Shown here piece by piece: positions 20,336-64,000 of a stretch of 64,000 nt of DNA. Source of the stretch: Thalassobium sp. R2A62. Lineage in GTDB: Bacteria; Pseudomonadota; Alphaproteobacteria; Rhodobacterales; Rhodobacteraceae. Numbering within the stretch: the first letter of the stretch is position 1; every line of letters begins with the position of its first letter. The stretch spans positions 186,001 to 250,000 of the forward strand of contig NZ_GG697169.2 in the NCBI RefSeq assembly GCF_000161835.1, in the 5' to 3' direction. The position numbers were made by a program, and so were the translations under genes. The notes beneath the pieces are model-generated. The model had not been told where the DNA came from. It ran no database searches and saw only the letters and a list, made by a program, of their open reading frames with translations.

Positions 20336-21685
20336 TTAGTCGGCTATTTGGCCATCCTTAAATTCACCAACGTATTGGCGGCCATCGGGCCAAGTGTAGG
20401 TACCCTGTCCGTTCGGTACGTCATTCCTCCATTCACCAACGTATTGGGAGCCATCGGCCATAGTGGCGGTACCTTGTCCGTTCCGGTCCCCATCCGCCCA
20501 TTCACCAACGTACCGGCCGCCAGATGCATAAGTGTAGGTGCCTTGACCGTGGGATGCGCCATTCTTGAATTCACCAACGTACTGTTCGCCATCGGCATAA
20601 GTGAAGGCGCCCTGTCCGTGTGTTACGCCATCCTTGAATTCACCAACGTATTGGCGGCCATCGGGCCAAGTGTAGGTGCCCTGTCCGTGGGATGCGCCAT
20701 CCTTGAATTCACCAACGTACTGTTCGCCATCGGCATAAGTGAAGGTGCCCTGTCCGTGGTTTACGCCATCCTTGAATTCACCAACATATTGGTCGCCATC
20801 GGTAGAAGTGAAGGTACCCTGTCCGTTCCGGTCCCCATCCGCCCATTCACCAACGTATTGGGAGCCATCAGGATAAGTGTAGGTACCCTGTCCGTGGGAT
20901 GCGCCATCCTTGAATTCACCAACGTACTGTTCGCCATCGGCATAACTGAAGGTGCCCTGTCCGTGTTTTAAGCCATCCTTGTATTCACCAACGTATTGGC
21001 GGCCATCGGGCCAAGTGTAGGTGCCCTGTCCGTAGAATACGCCATCCTTGAATTCACCAACGTACCGGCTGCCAGATGCATAAGTGTAGGTGCCTTGGCC
21101 GTGGGGTGCGCCATCCTTGATTTCACCAACGTATTGGTCGCCATCGGCATAAGTGAGGGTGCCCTGTCCGTTCGGTAGGTCATCCTTGAATTCACCAACA
21201 TATTGGTCGCCATCAGCAAAAGTGAAGGTACCCTGTCCGTTCCGGTCTCCATCCGCCCATTCACCAACGTATTGGGAGTCATCAGGATAAGTGTAGGTAC
21301 CCTGTCCGTTTTTTAGGCCATCCTTGTATTCACCAACGTATTGGCGGCCATCGGCATAAGTGTAGGTGCCCTGTCCGTTGTATGTGTCGTCTTTGAACTC
21401 ACCAACGTATTGGTCACCGTCCGCAAGGATTTCCTCGCCCTCGCCGTTGGGCTGCCCGTCCACTACGTCTCCGGTATAGCTGCTTCCGTCTGTGCGCTGC
21501 AGCGTTCCTTCTCCAGTCGCGACATTCCACTCCCATGTACTGGTGTAGGTAGTCCCTTCATCAAGTGTCACAGCCCCAACGCATGAGTGCCACATTGGTA
21601 AAAACGTATAGCAAATGTTCGACACAGATTGGCCAATGAAGGCGGCTGCGATTGCGGCAACAGGAACGAGCAGTAGTAGTTTCAT
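20336..21685 (-). CDS. MORN-repeat protein with N-terminal signal/anchor
   Basis: A 449-residue protein with an N-terminal hydrophobic segment (MKLLLLVPVAAIAAAFIG). It has two degenerate and about 15 regular MORN repeats of 23 residues, each like YVGEFKDGASHGQGTYTY. At DNA level this is a 69-bp tandem array from about 20345 to 21440. MORN repeats form elongated beta-hairpin stacks for lipid or protein binding. The hydrophobic start predicts export or periplasmic anchoring. The nearly identical repeats should make copy number unstable. The gene ends with a short incomplete repeat (FKDGQIAD) next to the truncated resolvase. Confidence 0.85.
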   Translation of the reverse strand: MKLLLLVPVAAIAAAFIGQSVSNICYTFLPMWHSCVGAVTLDEGTTYTSTWEWNVATGEGTLQRTDGSSYTGDVVDGQPNGEGEEILADGDQYVGEFKDDTYNGQGTYTYADGRQYVGEYKDGLKNGQGTYTYPDDSQYVGEWADGDRNGQGTFTFADGDQYVGEFKDDLPNGQGTLTYADGDQYVGEIKDGAPHGQGTYTYASGSRYVGEFKDGVFYGQGTYTWPDGRQYVGEYKDGLKHGQGTFSYADGEQYVGEFKDGASHGQGTYTYPDGSQYVGEWADGDRNGQGTFTSTDGDQYVGEFKDGVNHGQGTFTYADGEQYVGEFKDGASHGQGTYTWPDGRQYVGEFKDGVTHGQGAFTYADGEQYVGEFKNGASHGQGTYTYASGGRYVGEWADGDRNGQGTATMADGSQYVGEWRNDVPNGQGTYTWPDGRQYVGEFKDGQIAD

Positions 21686-51371: not shown

Positions 51372-52260
51372 GCCCCTCGCGTCGGCGGGCCTGCATCGAC
51401 CATGTTCGCAGTCAGTTCAAAGTTTCAGAGCGACGGGTTTGTCGCGTTCTGGGCCAGCACCGATCCACACAACGTCGATTGCCACATGGGCGTGCTGACG
51501 AAGAACGCTTGGTCGCGGATATGATTGAGCTGACACGCCAATACGGTCGATATGGCTATCGTCGGGTTGCAGCCCTGCTGAGAGACGCAGGCTGGCAAGT
51601 GAATGACAAACGTGTGGAACGTCTGTGGCGGCGTGAGGGGCTTAAAGTGCCCATGAAACAACCGAAGAAAGGGCGGCTCTGGCTCAATGATGGGTCGTGC
51701 GTCCGGCTGCGCCCCGAGTATCGCAATCATGTCTGGTCTTATGCACTGTCTGACAGGCGATTGCGTAGCAATCTGCTGAGAAGGACTTCGTTCATCACCG
51801 AACTGACGATGGCAGGGCGTTCCGGACATTGAACATCTTGGACGAACACAGCCGGGAATGTCTGGCGATCCGGGTCAAACGGAAGTTGAACTCGACGGAG
51901 GTCATCGACGCTCTTACAGACCTGTTCATCCTGCGAGGGGTTCCTGCCCACATCCGTTCAGATAACGGTCCCGAGTTCATCGCTGAGGCTGTCAGGGACT
52001 GGATCAACGCTGTTGGAGCCAAGACCGCATATATCAAACCCGGATCGCCCTGGGAGAACGGATACTGCGAGAGTTTCAACGGATGAATGAGGGATGAATT
52101 GCTGAACGGCGAAATCTTCTACTCGCTGCGTGAGGCCAAAATCATTATCGAAAGATGGAGGAACCATTACAACACCAAGCGACCACACAGTGCATTGGGC
52201 TACCGCCCACCAGCGCCAGAAGCCATCGTACCGATGGACCAAAGGCCAATCATGCACTAA
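51371..52260 (+). pseudogene. IS3-family OrfB, second copy, same lesions
   Basis: The same reading-frame interruption after HVWSY and the same TGA before MRDELLNGEIFYS as at 23955-24844. The identical lesions show that the two copies share a recently inactive ancestor. Confidence 0.85.
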
Positions 52261-59683: not shown

Positions 59684-60838
59684 CTAGCTCGTTGAGGCGA
59701 GTGATTTTTTGGGATCGTAAAATGGAATAGGCACAACCGTGCACATCCGCTGATCGTCCAAGATGTCAACGCAAGCGACCCCGCCAACTGATGCATGTTC
59801 GGATTGAACCATAGCCAAGGCAATGTTCTTGCCTAATCTTGGAGAGTGGATTGCCGAGGTTACCTGACCGACTTGCGCGCCCTCTACCAAAACAGGCCAG
59901 CAAAAATCATTCGAGCCAACAAGCGGTTCACCGTCAATTTCGAGACCGATGAGCCGCTGTGCGACACCTTCTGCCTTGATGTCTTTCAGAGCGGCCTTGC
60001 TGACAAAATCAGCGTCAATACCCAAATCGACTAAGCGGCCAAGGTTTAGCTCGTAGGGGTTATTCGCAAGCGTCATGTCTGCATGATAGGACATCATCCC
60101 AGCTTCGATGCGGCGAATGCTGGATGTGTGACCTGGCTTTAGCCCAAGCGGCGTTCCCACCTGCATGATGTGTTCCCATAGCTCGTCGCCGGCAGAACCG
60201 TCCCTCAGGAAAATCTCATATCCAAGTTCGCTTGACCAACCGGTGCGAGAGATGATGAGAGGAACCCCGTCCCAGTTATATTCCATGAACCGGTAGTATT
60301 TGAGTTCGGTCGGAGCATCTCCAAAGGCCGCGCGCAGGACATCACGCGATTTCGGGCCCTGCAGCTGCAACGGAGACACGTCAGGCTCGGAGATCTCAAC
60401 ATCCATTCCTGCATTCACGGCCACACCGCGCACCCATAGCAAAACATCGCTGTCTGCAATTGAGAGCCAAAAATGGTCATCTGCCAATTTCAACAAGATT
60501 GGGTCGTTGATAATACCGCCTGCTTGGTCTGTGATCAGAACATATTTGCATTGGCCGACTTCGCATTTGGAAAGATCACGACAGCTGAGGAATTGCGTGA
60601 ATTTGGCGGCATCGGGACCTTTGATCTCGACCTGACGTTCGACCGCGACATCACACAAAATCGCCTCGTTCACGAGGTTCCAAAAGTTCTGGACCGGATC
60701 ACCAAAATCGCGCGGGATATACATGTGGTTGTAGACGGAAAATCCCTTTGCCCCCCAGCGCAGCGCCGCGTCTGAAAAGGGTGACTTGCGCACCTGAGTA
60801 CCAAAGCTGAATTGAGAGAAGTCGAGGTCGTTGGTCAT
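59684..60838 (-). CDS. DmdA/GcvT-type aminomethyltransferase-family demethylase
   Basis: A 384-residue protein of the tetrahydrofolate-dependent aminomethyltransferase fold. Characteristic DmdA-like features are the early YNHMYIPRDFGD, CDVAVERQVEIKGPDA, LSCRDLSKCEVGQCKYVLIT, LSIADSDVLLWVRGVA and PLQLQGPKSRDVL. True GcvT proteins differ in these blocks, and DMSP demethylase DmdA shares them. It would transfer a methyl group from a sulfonium or methylthio compound to tetrahydrofolate in the cytosol. The start is ATG 60838. It is the last gene of the mtoX operon, which strongly suggests methyl-sulfur metabolism; whether DMSP is the substrate is not shown. Confidence 0.78.
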   Translation of the reverse strand: MTNDLDFSQFSFGTQVRKSPFSDAALRWGAKGFSVYNHMYIPRDFGDPVQNFWNLVNEAILCDVAVERQVEIKGPDAAKFTQFLSCRDLSKCEVGQCKYVLITDQAGGIINDPILLKLADDHFWLSIADSDVLLWVRGVAVNAGMDVEISEPDVSPLQLQGPKSRDVLRAAFGDAPTELKYYRFMEYNWDGVPLIISRTGWSSELGYEIFLRDGSAGDELWEHIMQVGTPLGLKPGHTSSIRRIEAGMMSYHADMTLANNPYELNLGRLVDLGIDADFVSKAALKDIKAEGVAQRLIGLEIDGEPLVGSNDFCWPVLVEGAQVGQVTSAIHSPRLGKNIALAMVQSEHASVGGVACVDILDDQRMCTVVPIPFYDPKKSLASTS

Positions 60839-60872: not shown

Positions 60873-61394
60873 CTATTCTTGAACGAGGTCGCCGCCGGCT
60901 TTTTTCCATGCGCCAACGCCACCCGTTAGGTTGACCAATGGGGACAATCCCATTTCCATCGCGACTGTCGCGGCCAAGGCCGAGCGTCCGCCAGATGCGC
61001 AATAAAACACATAGGTCTTGTCTTGATTGAACTCTGGCTTGTGTGCAGGGCTATCTGGGTCGATGTGAAATTCGAGCATTCCACGCGAAGAGGCGACGGC
61101 CCCAGCGATGATGCCCGTTTTCGCCTGTTCTATCCCATCGCGAAGATCGACAAAGACGTGGTCAGGTGAGCCGACCAGCGACATCGCTTCTTCTGCGCTG
61201 ATTGCGGTGACTTGGGACAATGCATCTTTGACGATGTCCTTTGCGCTCTTTGTGATGTTTTGCGGCATTTCCGAATTCCTTGTTCGTTTCGAGCGATACC
61301 ATTTCAGCATCGCCCCGATTGGCCAATCAACGGCCTCACCGCATCCGCAGCCACAGGCCGCAGGTACGCGCATGGTCGTCGATTTTTGCTTCAT
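60873..61394 (-). CDS. Rhodanese-like sulfurtransferase with Cys-rich N-terminal extension
   Basis: A 173-residue protein whose rhodanese domain starts at PQNITKSAKDIV (about residue 43) and has the active loop FYCASGGRSALAA (Cys near 141). The start at 61394 overlaps the previous stop as ATGA, supporting it, although an ATG at 61268 would give the usual 131-residue protein. The extension contains ACGCGCGE and may bind a metal or zinc (inference). Rhodaneses move sulfane sulfur; here it could handle persulfide or sulfide released by methanethiol oxidation. Confidence 0.78.
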   Translation of the reverse strand: MKQKSTTMRVPAACGCGCGEAVDWPIGAMLKWYRSKRTRNSEMPQNITKSAKDIVKDALSQVTAISAEEAMSLVGSPDHVFVDLRDGIEQAKTGIIAGAVASSRGMLEFHIDPDSPAHKPEFNQDKTYVFYCASGGRSALAATVAMEMGLSPLVNLTGGVGAWKKAGGDLVQE

Positions 61395-61855
61395 ATCGCC
61401 AGATCAAGCCGTGGCTTCCAAAACGGACGGAAGAGCTCGATCTTGGGGCATCTGTTCATCACGACTTGCAATCCGGCATCCTCGGCTAGCTTTGCTGCCG
61501 CATCGTCGTAGACGCCGATCTGGCCCCACAAAACCTTGGCGCCAATCGCGATCGCTTGTTCCGTTATCCCGTACAGCTCTTCTTTGGGGCGGAAGACCTC
61601 GACCATGTCCACAGGTCGATCAATTTCTTCGAGCGAATGAAAGACCTTGATGCCTCTGATCTCAGAGAGGTTCGGGTTGGGGTTAACCGGCATCATATCG
61701 TAGCCGGTTTCATGCAGCACCCGCAGTACGCCATAGCTGAATTTTGTCTTGTCCGCGCTGGCCCCGATCATTGCGATGGTTTTGACCGATTTAAGGATAT
61801 CAGCGAGGTATTTGGCGTCGTAGTCGTACAGTTCGTCCAATGCATTGGCTGGCAT
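61391..61855 (-). CDS. CoA-binding (YccU-like) protein
   Basis: A 154-residue Rossmann protein of the CoA_binding_2 family: TIAMIGASADKTKFSYGVLR, MMPVNPNPNLSEIRGIKVFH, VFRPKEELYGITEQAIAIGA and a Cys in VVMNRCPKIE. It binds CoA, and the conserved Cys may carry a thiol or persulfide. A GGAGG site precedes ATG 61855. It is 3 bp after the ferredoxin stop and 4 bp overlapping the rhodanese, so translation is coupled. Confidence 0.78.
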   Translation of the reverse strand: MPANALDELYDYDAKYLADILKSVKTIAMIGASADKTKFSYGVLRVLHETGYDMMPVNPNPNLSEIRGIKVFHSLEEIDRPVDMVEVFRPKEELYGITEQAIAIGAKVLWGQIGVYDDAAAKLAEDAGLQVVMNRCPKIELFRPFWKPRLDLAI

Positions 61856-61858
61856 GGA

Positions 61859-62227
61859 TCAGACCTCCTTTGGTGTCGCGATGTCCGCTTTCAACTCGTG
61901 TGGTTCGAGCGGATCAAGAAAGGGATTGCGATAGAGTTTGTCGTGGCTTTCGATACCGATCTCGAGGGTACAGTCCGACGTGGCGCGTGCAACGCACAGC
62001 AAGACATACCCGTTGTCGAGTTGCCGATTGTTAAGGGCAACTTGGCGACGTTGATCGACCTCTCCAGACGTTAGCTTGGCTGCGCAGGTGATGCAGCCGC
62101 CGTATTTGCAGCCATAGGGCAGGTCGACGCCGTGGTCGCGCAAGCTGTCCAATAGGGGGCGGCGTGCATCAATCTCGTATGTGGCAGCATCGCGATTGGC
62201 GATTGTGATTGTATGTGTCTCGCTCAC
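61859..62227 (-). CDS. 2Fe-2S ferredoxin (plant type)
   Basis: A 122-residue protein with the cluster motif CKYGGCITC followed by a fourth Cys in YVLLCVARA, in a domain with TITIANRDAATYEIDARRPL at the start. The start is GTG 62227, overlapping the mtoX stop as GTGA; an ATG 7 codons upstream lies inside mtoX. It is an electron carrier, here probably serving an enzyme of the same operon. A ferredoxin is not required by the known MtoX reaction, which makes its place notable. Confidence 0.85.
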   Translation of the reverse strand: MSETHTITIANRDAATYEIDARRPLLDSLRDHGVDLPYGCKYGGCITCAAKLTSGEVDQRRQVALNNRQLDNGYVLLCVARATSDCTLEIGIESHDKLYRNPFLDPLEPHELKADIATPKEV

Positions 62228-63582
62228 AGCCAAATGTCGCTTGTACAATCACCGCCCGGATACCGGGTTTCGTGGCAACGGCTGGGACCATTAGGTTCCT
62301 GTCCAAAATCAACGATAAAGTCTTTGTTGACCTTCATGCCGCCATTTTCGACGTCGCAGTCAATCATCAACATGACACCACCTTGGGTGCGGATCTCGGG
62401 GTAGAACTGATTGTCCCAAGTCGAAAAGAGGGATGTCGTTACATAGAGCCGTTTTCCATCAAGCGAGAGCTGGTACATCTGTGGGCCACCTGCAACTTTT
62501 ACGCCGTTCACTTCGGGCGCTTTGCCCAGCAATCCGCCCATCCAGACTTGACCCGTCAGTGCCGGCTTGTGGGGATCTGAAATATCATACTGGCGCATAT
62601 CGCCGTGCAGCCAGTTGTTCAAATAGAGGTACTTGTCGTCCATCGAAACGAGGATTGCCGACATCACGCCCGGGACAGGAATGGGCCATTCAGGATGCGG
62701 CTCGTTCTCAACATCGATGATCTTTTCCCATTCCCATTTGCCTTCGTCAGTCTTCCAGAAGTGGATGACGTTTGCACTTAGGGCCGCGCCGCAAAATCCA
62801 TGACTGCTGTCAGGGTCGTGTAAGAATTTTACCTCTAGTGGGATCAAGCCATCTTCGCCGAGATACATCGTCTCGATCGGTTTCTTCTTCTCAAAATCCC
62901 AAATGTGGAGACGCCGCCCGTACTTGAGATGTCCAACCTCTTCGAGGTCAAAGCCCGGCATAAACGTATTGGGTGCGGCCCACTCGGATGAGATCATCAC
63001 GTTGTGGCGCGGCTGGTACCAGAAATCGTAGCTGAAGGGGATGTCCCCCATCGTCTCTTCCCAGCGGCCTACAATTTCAAAATCTTTGTTCAGGTGCAGA
63101 TACCCACCTGGGGCTTCACCCTTTGCGTTGCCCAGAAAGGAGATTATGATTTCTGAACCTAGGCAGTGGACAGTATGGGGCCCGCTTAGATCGGTCTTTG
63201 ATTTGATTTCGGCACCATCAATCACTTTGTGCAAACGCGGCGCATAGGGGTCAGTTGCGGTATCAACGACGTGAATGTTGTTGGAACGCACGCCGGGGAC
63301 CAGCAAGTACTTGCGGCTCATTCCTGCGTCATCGTGGCATGACGAACAGGCATTCCATCCCATGTGGTGTAGCTCGTCCCCAATGCCCGGCATCTCGAGC
63401 CGGTGAATGACTTGGCTGTACGTGGGGCTATCGGGATCCGCATCTACAGTTGCGAGGTAGTCGGGTTTTTGAATGCCCGTACCTGTGTAGATCGCAATGG
63501 TGTAAAGCAGTTTTTCACGAGGCGCTTTGATCGCTGCCGCAGGGCTAGAGTAGCCGGGGCCACAACATTCTAGGTCCATCAT
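62224..63582 (-). CDS. mtoX: Methanethiol oxidase (selenium-binding protein 56 family)
   Basis: A 452-residue SBP56 homologue with ECCGPGYSSPAAAIKAPREK, IGDELHHMGWNACSSCHDDA, GYLHLNKDFEIVGRWEETMG, PFSYDFWYQPRHNVMISSEW, GLIPLEVKFLHDPDSSHGFC, LNNWLHGDMRQYDISDPHKP, GGPQMYQLSLDGKRLYVTTS and RYPGGDCTSDIWL, all matching the family. Bacterial MtoX oxidises methanethiol to formaldehyde, hydrogen sulfide and H2O2 with copper. No signal peptide is present, so it is probably cytosolic, unlike some exported MtoX proteins. It is the first gene of the operon; the divergent IclR gene lies 66 bp away. Confidence 0.9.
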   Translation of the reverse strand: MMDLECCGPGYSSPAAAIKAPREKLLYTIAIYTGTGIQKPDYLATVDADPDSPTYSQVIHRLEMPGIGDELHHMGWNACSSCHDDAGMSRKYLLVPGVRSNNIHVVDTATDPYAPRLHKVIDGAEIKSKTDLSGPHTVHCLGSEIIISFLGNAKGEAPGGYLHLNKDFEIVGRWEETMGDIPFSYDFWYQPRHNVMISSEWAAPNTFMPGFDLEEVGHLKYGRRLHIWDFEKKKPIETMYLGEDGLIPLEVKFLHDPDSSHGFCGAALSANVIHFWKTDEGKWEWEKIIDVENEPHPEWPIPVPGVMSAILVSMDDKYLYLNNWLHGDMRQYDISDPHKPALTGQVWMGGLLGKAPEVNGVKVAGGPQMYQLSLDGKRLYVTTSLFSTWDNQFYPEIRTQGGVMLMIDCDVENGGMKVNKDFIVDFGQEPNGPSRCHETRYPGGDCTSDIWL

Positions 63583-63650
63583 CACATTCCTCTCTTGCGA
63601 TCAAGTCGCAATTCTCGTAAATCGATAATTAGATTCTTACAAGGTAAAAA
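63583..63650. promoter_or_regulatory. Divergent mtoX / iclR control region
   Basis: In this 68-bp gap, gtaaatc (63617-63623) and gattcttac (63632-63640) form an imperfect inverted repeat (GTAA..ATC / GATTcTTAC), the usual shape of an IclR operator. The mtoX promoter should lie here too. AGAGGA precedes the mtoX start. Confidence 0.5.
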
Positions 63651-64000
63651 ATGCACTTAGAGCGCCTCACCAGTATTCTCGAAATTGTCGGACAGAAAAA
63701 TGTGGCGACAGTGGCTGAAGTTTGTAGCCACACAGAGCTTCCTAAGCCGACGGTATATCGGTTGGTGCAGGATCTCGTTTCCGTGGGGTTGTTGAGCTCG
63801 GTTGAGCGGGGGCATTTCGCCCTTGGTAGCCGACTGAACCGCATAACTCGAAACGAAGATTCCGATCCAGCCTTGTTAGAGATCATTTCACCCACGCTTG
63901 CGCGTGCGGCTCAGGCACATGGTGCGGCCTTTTTCGTTTCAAGACTTCGGGGGAGATCGGTTGAAATCATCCACGTCGAGACACCTGACAACGGCGTGTC
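63651..64000 (+). CDS. IclR-family regulator (runs off the window)
   Basis: The first 116 residues of an IclR protein: helix-turn-helix NVATVAEVCSHTELPKPTVY with RLVQDLVSVGLL (residues 17-48), wing GHFALGSRLNRI and the start of the effector domain. ATG 63651 is preceded by AAGG at a distance. It is divergent from mtoX and so probably its regulator. IclR effectors are often small acids or aromatic compounds. Confidence 0.87.
   Translation, partial: MHLERLTSILEIVGQKNVATVAEVCSHTELPKPTVYRLVQDLVSVGLLSSVERGHFALGSRLNRITRNEDSDPALLEIISPTLARAAQAHGAAFFVSRLRGRSVEIIHVETPDNGV

Follow-up and report, generated by a model that had tools for sequence, protein, structure and literature searches.

An SBP56 lineage of Rhodobacteraceae paired with a plant-type [2Fe-2S] ferredoxin: a candidate two-component system for methanethiol oxidation

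Methanethiol is the sulfur product of marine DMSP demethylation. Its oxidation is disputed: H2S and H2O2 are the products in some reports, sulfane sulfur and water in another. The window (the whole stretch of DNA that was analysed, 64,000 nucleotides from Thalassobium sp. R2A62) ends with a gene of the SBP56 family directly followed by a ferredoxin gene. The question raised by this locus is whether the ferredoxin serves the SBP56 protein or another neighbour. The minus strand at the window end is a compact operon, in the order SBP56, ferredoxin, CoA_binding_2, rhodanese, DmdA-like. The SBP56/SELENBP1-type gene (type A, see below) lies at 62224..63582, with an ATG start and an in-frame GTG at 63585. 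The ferredoxin gene (61859..62227; Fer2, 58 bits) likely starts with the GTG at 62227-62225; read by eye, the nucleotides GTGA (62227-62224) are common to this start and to the SBP56 stop (TGA, 62226-62224). The earlier note placed the pair at 62224-63582, a range that corresponds to the SBP56 gene alone. A CoA_binding_2 protein (61391..61855; 123.6 bits), a rhodanese-like protein with a Cys-rich N-terminal extension (60873..61394; 51.8 bits), whose ATG overlaps the stop of the preceding CoA_binding_2 gene, and a DmdA-like paralogue of the GcvT family (59684..60838) follow on the same strand. The starts of the ferredoxin and DmdA-like genes are by-eye readings. A divergent IclR-family regulator (63651..64000, plus strand; 253 aa in total) continues beyond the window end. 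Elsewhere in the window, a protein consisting mostly of MORN repeats (14 stretches) is encoded at 20336-21685. A short ORF at 51829-52086 has an integrase core domain (rve) and is probably left over from an insertion sequence.

The window protein matches Pfam SBP56 (PF05694) over its whole length (682.3 bits, 4e-205; cut-off 34). Its score for the NCBIfam MtoX model NF052453 is 157.5 bits, far from the cut-off of 650 (156.3 bits when 14 chosen genomes were searched, nine of which have a gene above the cut-off). The name MtoX given in the earlier note does not hold in its strict sense. The GWNACS, HTV/IHC and GGDC motifs with the cysteines of cluster 1 MTOs are all present. H73, H74, C80, H137, H140 and C141 are counted from the in-frame GTG (minus one from the ATG); so counted, the four copper-related histidines (73, 74, 137, 140) stand at the numbers of human SELENBP1. 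One Asp and one Glu are invariant across 24 aligned proteins and probably are the counterparts of human D189 and E252. The copper ligands of human SELENBP1 are described as essential (PMC10362175), and the motifs with them are conserved in type A. This human protein is described as a mainly cytosolic copper-dependent thiol oxidase; it has N-terminal cysteines, as has the window protein, and the two share His/Cys at 73/74/80 and 137/140/141. SELENBP1 is reported to make H2S and H2O2, and the part of that source used here mentions no ferredoxin partner (PMC10362175). The predicted structure of the window protein has the fold of Sulfolobus tokodaii SBP56 (PDB 2ece) over its full length (fold search; TM 0.90, 44% identity). 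The GGDC cysteine, called catalytic and, by Cao et al. 2024 (PMC10936201), substrate-binding, is missing in 3/53 type A proteins; these are divergent (L044, L046, L082; GGDV in L082) and their loci retain the ferredoxin.

SBP56 is present in 136/394 genomes of the window's family, and the window's genome has one such gene. Type A: Pfam SBP56 scores of about 670-710 bits; 54 full-length genes, window's included. Type B: about 555-596 bits, one at 653.5. A low-scoring group includes periplasmic MtoX. Compared with the window protein, 26 type B genes score 324-361 bits and type A 729-1096 bits; types A and B are about 43% identical. Partial SBP56 matches (in G193, G156, G115 and G008, the second match of G325, G056:C65 and others) were left out of typing and counts. 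A quick tree was made from 100 of 167 rows; on it, type A makes up one side of a branch whose support is 73, or 92 without L173, the most distant row, and the tool warned that long branches meet there. The window protein is a member of a separate SBP56 lineage, type A; by its NCBIfam score it is distinct from the periplasmic MtoX of Hyphomicrobium. The window protein is 94% identical to the product of G604:C1:317620-318972, from another family of the same class, and a SAR116 row lies near it on the quick tree; operon transfer between families is therefore probable. SELENBP1/mtoX has been assigned to SAR116 (PMC12262181). In type B loci, a similar protein of ~220 aa, membrane-like by eye, is encoded directly downstream in 25/26 cases (L094:10591-11259 and equivalents). 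Three of these proteins were scanned and none has a Pfam match over cut-off. It is a possible third strict partner of SBP56.

By eye, no signal peptide is seen in the window protein (N-terminus MMDLECCGPGYSSP...), and there is no RR motif. All nine periplasmic MtoX have, by eye, an RR motif and a hydrophobic leader. Within residues 1-45, the highest mean hydropathy of any 11-residue stretch is 1.2 in the window protein and 1.2-1.7 in 53 type A proteins, and it is 1.5-2.3 in the nine MtoX leaders; the separation is weak and the ranges overlap somewhat, so that the lack of an RR leader is the main ground for calling the signal peptide absent. Type A proteins are accordingly predicted to be cytosolic. 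That an SBP56 protein without visible signal peptide adjoins a 2Fe-2S ferredoxin, as the earlier note had read from the sequence, is borne out.

A ferredoxin gene lies downstream on the same strand in 53/54 full-length type A genes of the 394 family genomes (53 loci were fetched; G079:C60 was judged from coordinates). The exception, G090:C2 (L083), has no adjacent ferredoxin, and the same genome carries a second type A gene with one. The check suggested in the earlier note, whether the two genes co-occur in other genomes, is thus answered positively, and the absence from otherwise similar operons that would have spoken against the pairing amounts to this one case in 54. In the reverse direction, a profile of 27 ferredoxins gave 57 matches (E up to 1e-20, the weakest 5e-48) in 55/394 genomes, scoring being limited to 11 candidates per genome at most. 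Each of the 57 adjoins an SBP56 gene, which in four cases is broken or fragmentary; these four came via the ferredoxin and are outside the 53/54 count. At G014:C51:27533-28865 the SBP56 gene apparently consists of two pieces with stops, the ferredoxin still being adjacent (decaying copy or assembly error). The gaps between matched stretches are -6 to 14 nt in 47 pairs, 42-124 nt in nine and 477 nt in one (G280, L041), where a CoA-binding gene lies in between. No such ferredoxin was found next to type B SBP56 (0/26 fetched loci, a sample of many type B genes), next to ten other SBP56 loci (0/10; L178-L187, 43-47% identical to the window protein, a chosen subset of lower-identity matches) or next to periplasmic MtoX (0/9, 1.5 kb flanks). 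Beyond the family (385 genomes of the class and 398 of the phylum were searched), all seven complete type A loci fetched have the ferredoxin (63-94% identical). L111 was dropped, as it repeats the gene of L067. In L174-L176, SBP56 is cut to a fragment by the end of the contig; these loci stand outside the counts, and the ferredoxin is seen in L176. Among named genomes, SBP56 is upstream of the ferredoxin in 80/80 loci (best 80 of 529; 16 repeat ferredoxins of the first set); chosen by ferredoxin, they measure the reverse direction only. Their titles include Roseovarius, Ruegeria, SAR116, Stappia, Hyphomicrobiales and gammaproteobacterial MAGs. The pairing is confirmed as real and far from chance; it is exclusive in both directions and the gene spacing is close. 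Three long ORFs that contain the ferredoxin (L039, L064, L078; 374, 435 and 377 aa) were rejected as fusions, because they run upstream over SBP56 in another frame. In a marine Rhodobacteraceae species, a ferredoxin gene (2517702559) and a selenium-binding protein gene (2517702560) are both described as more highly expressed (PMC10203303); their consecutive numbers suggest that they adjoin each other. A literature search on methanethiol oxidase or SBP56 with ferredoxin covered titles and the beginnings of abstracts and found none that describes the pairing. The word ferredoxin has no occurrence in the texts of PMC10936201 (main text), PMC5739008, PMC12262181 and PMC7157515.

The ferredoxin is of the plant type. 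It has the fold and the C-x4-C-x2-C...C ligands: the cluster motif CKYGGCITC is encoded at 62084..62110 and the fourth cluster Cys at 61994..61996 (both minus strand), and all 27 ferredoxins that were aligned have the four cysteines. The best Foldseek match is 1rfk_B (E 4.6e-11), and the nearest solved relatives are cyanobacterial and plant ferredoxins. Fold and cluster cysteines are shared with PDB 1rfk and 3p63; unlike these plant/cyanobacterial-type proteins, the window ferredoxin has a conserved C-terminal tail, GVESHDxLYxNPF, and it scores just under the TIGR02008 cut-off (79.8 bits against 81.15). The tail (GIESHDKLYRNPF, 61919..61957, minus strand) extends past the domain typical of plant-type ferredoxins. 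In the 27 aligned ferredoxins, its G, L, Y, N and P show no variation, and its V, S, H and F are almost invariant. The mean pLDDT of the model is 79; in the tail the confidence is middling, and the last part is disordered. The tail may be a docking element.

Type A SBP56 and the ferredoxin are proposed to form a two-component redox system, in which the ferredoxin is the dedicated electron-transfer partner; this reading is given slightly more credence than doubt. In this system the SBP56 protein, a copper-propeller protein, would attack methanethiol or a close thiol in the cytosol. The two proteins would interact physically, and the ferredoxin would most likely donate electrons to the copper/cysteine site. 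These electrons could serve to reduce O2 to water instead of H2O2, or to release an enzyme-bound persulfide by reduction. The products would be formaldehyde and sulfane sulfur or sulfide, and the sulfur would pass to the rhodanese and, where present, to the persulfide-dioxygenase-like protein.

The flow of electrons could also be the reverse. The copper site of SBP56 would then act as a dehydrogenase, oxidising methanethiol with the ferredoxin as acceptor, without direct use of O2 and without H2O2. The exclusive pairing fits this alternative as well. Thiocyanate dehydrogenase, a copper propeller enzyme that oxidises sulfur and passes electrons to cytochrome c, is matched weakly by the SBP56 model (TM about 0.5), which may lend the alternative some support, but such a match may be generic to propellers. 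The many propellers matched weakly also include nitrous oxide reductase, like the former a copper propeller enzyme with an external electron carrier. The potentials of plant-type ferredoxins usually lie near -0.4 V, at which methanethiol would not readily reduce them. This direction is considered unlikely.

The proposed partnership in turnover is also to be set against a role of the ferredoxin in maturation, in which it would reduce copper or help build the SBP56 cofactor, as proposed for SCO1/MauG with MtoX, and have no part in catalysis. Periplasmic MtoX (Hyphomicrobium sp. VS; Ruegeria pomeroyi SPOA0269; PMC5739008) belongs to the same SBP56 family as the window protein and has the same proposed substrate, methanethiol. 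It differs from the window protein, which has no visible signal peptide, scores below the MtoX cut-off and adjoins a ferredoxin instead of SCO1/MauG. SCO1/SenC is encoded downstream of MtoX in 3/3 scanned proteins (from 3/9 loci) and MauG beside it in 1/1; the ferredoxin holds the same place beside type A. SCO1 and MauG are absent beside the window SBP56, whose neighbours are Fer2, CoA_binding_2, Rhodanese, GcvT and IclR. However, no SCO1- or MauG-like family was found among ten scanned representatives of neighbourhood ORF clusters, and no lone ferredoxin is known to build such cofactors. A pure maturation role is held to be quite unlikely. IclR-type genes lie near relatives of both proteins: in the periplasmic MtoX loci L268-L275, an IclR like that of type A is found in 8/9 (seven at 108-129 bits, L275 at only 22 bits), which hints at a shared inducer.

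The earlier note suggested that electrons may be needed by the DmdA-like or the CoA-binding protein, or by a different reaction; the last may be so. The 53 family type A loci contain ferredoxin (52), CoA-binding (48), IclR (29), rhodanese (19), enoyl-CoA hydratase (17), acyl-CoA ligase (12), DmdA-like (11) and dioxygenase-like (5) genes; these counts depend on the chosen score thresholds, and contig ends lower some of them. Among the 60 fetched type A loci, six have the ferredoxin without a CoA-binding gene, one has a CoA-binding gene without the ferredoxin, and 47 have the ferredoxin but no DmdA-like gene within reach; some genes may be hidden beyond the ends of contigs. The ferredoxin thus persists where these genes are missing; the reading that it serves their products was rejected, and SBP56 is the best candidate for its client. 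That the ferredoxin works for one of its other neighbours (CoA-binding, rhodanese or DmdA-like) or for a general pool, and stands beside SBP56 by operon inheritance, is improbable: the arrangement may have arisen once, type A being one side of a branch on the quick tree, and the CoA-binding gene is also common, but the ferredoxin is kept in the loci without CoA-binding or DmdA-like genes and after the change of gene order in L041, and none of these three families is known to be ferredoxin-dependent. Beside type A, the CoA_binding_2 gene is found almost as regularly as the ferredoxin (48/53 family loci; 79/80 named loci, the best 80 of 529), and its product may be part of the system.

Published enzymes bear on the two-component reading. 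The statement that known MtoX makes H2O2 was imprecise: for three Rhodobacteraceae MTOs, Cao et al. 2024 (PMC10936201) report sulfane sulfur as the product, without H2O2. In the assays described there, purified cluster 1 enzymes were used alone, and methanethiol loss was measured for RdMTO made alone in E. coli (PMC10936201). The cluster 1 enzymes RdMTO and RlMTO have the GWNACS, HTVHC and GGDC motifs of the window protein. The cysteines of RdMTO (82/143/448) are spaced 61/305, as in 2/53 type A proteins (61/306 in 45/53); type B spacings are 64-65/314-316, and that of RlMTO (76/140/456; 64/316) is the commonest in type B (19/26). RdMTO is most likely of type A and RlMTO fits type B, cysteine spacing being the sole basis for the assignment of RdMTO. 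Since RdMTO, so assigned, is slowly active alone, the ferredoxin would not be strictly required for some activity. The rate of RdMTO, computed from 44 uM in 30 min at 0.3 mg/mL, is about 5 nmol/min/mg; native Hyphomicrobium MTO is reported to reach 16 umol/min/mg (PMC5739008). The low rate of RdMTO was rejected as proof of a missing partner and is no evidence for one, because RpMTO, of another lineage, is equally slow in the same assay (about 9 nmol/min/mg, computed; PMC10936201). In R. pomeroyi, deletion of mtoX is reported to have removed over 90% of the activity despite two further SBP-family members, either of which might be of type A (PMC7157515). Counted for the two-component system are the pairing in both directions, the spacing, the conserved tail, the copper-ligand motifs, the operon content, the raised expression of the two genes in PMC10203303 and the retention without the CoA-binding gene. 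Counted against it are the activity of RdMTO alone, the R. pomeroyi deletion, the L083 exception and the GGDC losses.

The DmdA-like protein of the window scores 373.5 bits for DmdA (NF009133; cut-off 410), and those of three scanned fuller operons 366-379 bits. It was rejected as the DmdA of this genome; a DmdA over the cut-off (699.4 bits) is encoded elsewhere, at G000:C1:805721. The genome has two DmdA-like paralogues just under the cut-off (59684-60838 of the window and G000:C1:1424870-1425946). In fuller operons, the acyl-CoA synthetase (two scanned) is over the PRK08162 cut-off and far below that of 3-(methylthio)propionyl-CoA ligase, and the enoyl-CoA hydratase (one scanned) is over PRK08139. 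The metallo-beta-lactamase-fold protein of L075 matches the dioxygenase part of Blh (371 bits; the cut-off of 625 is for the two-domain protein), and the PDB matches of the persulfide-dioxygenase-like protein include ETHE1 among others. None of the NCBIfam names for DMSP steps was reached at cut-off among the operon-neighbour matches. By their gene content, the fuller operons appear to combine a set for the demethylation of DMSP with later steps that cleave methanethiol and oxidise sulfane sulfur. The presence of dioxygenase-like, enoyl-CoA hydratase and ligase genes fits methanethiol derived from DMSP. From RdMTO and this operon content, the window gene is a putative methanethiol-oxidising enzyme gene. 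DmdA over cut-off is found in 44/55 genomes with the ferredoxin pair, 57/81 with other SBP56 and 68/258 without SBP56; a genome-level link special to type A was therefore rejected, the link being common to SBP56 in general and confounded by kinship.

The full proposal is put forward tentatively, its parts taken jointly attracting rather more doubt than belief. Type A would be a cytosolic, ferredoxin-coupled copper enzyme, a two-component methanethiol monooxygenase-like or dehydrogenase-like system and not a stand-alone O2-to-H2O2 oxidase; it would be distinct from the SCO1/MauG-linked MtoX, type B would be tied to the putative membrane protein, and each lineage would have its own redox partner. 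The published assays described in the sources cited used SBP56 protein without partner. Because type A almost never occurs without the ferredoxin, the reaction as now accepted, with no partner, may be an incomplete description of this type. An SBP56 gene adjoining a ferredoxin with the GVESHDxLYxNPF tail is a simple genome marker that separates type A from periplasmic MtoX and is useful in surveys naming SBP56 genes mtoX. If the ferredoxin is as obligate as it looks in this widespread lineage, adding it back would be a direct test of the product question. On the same condition, the rates and products assigned to type A may need revision.
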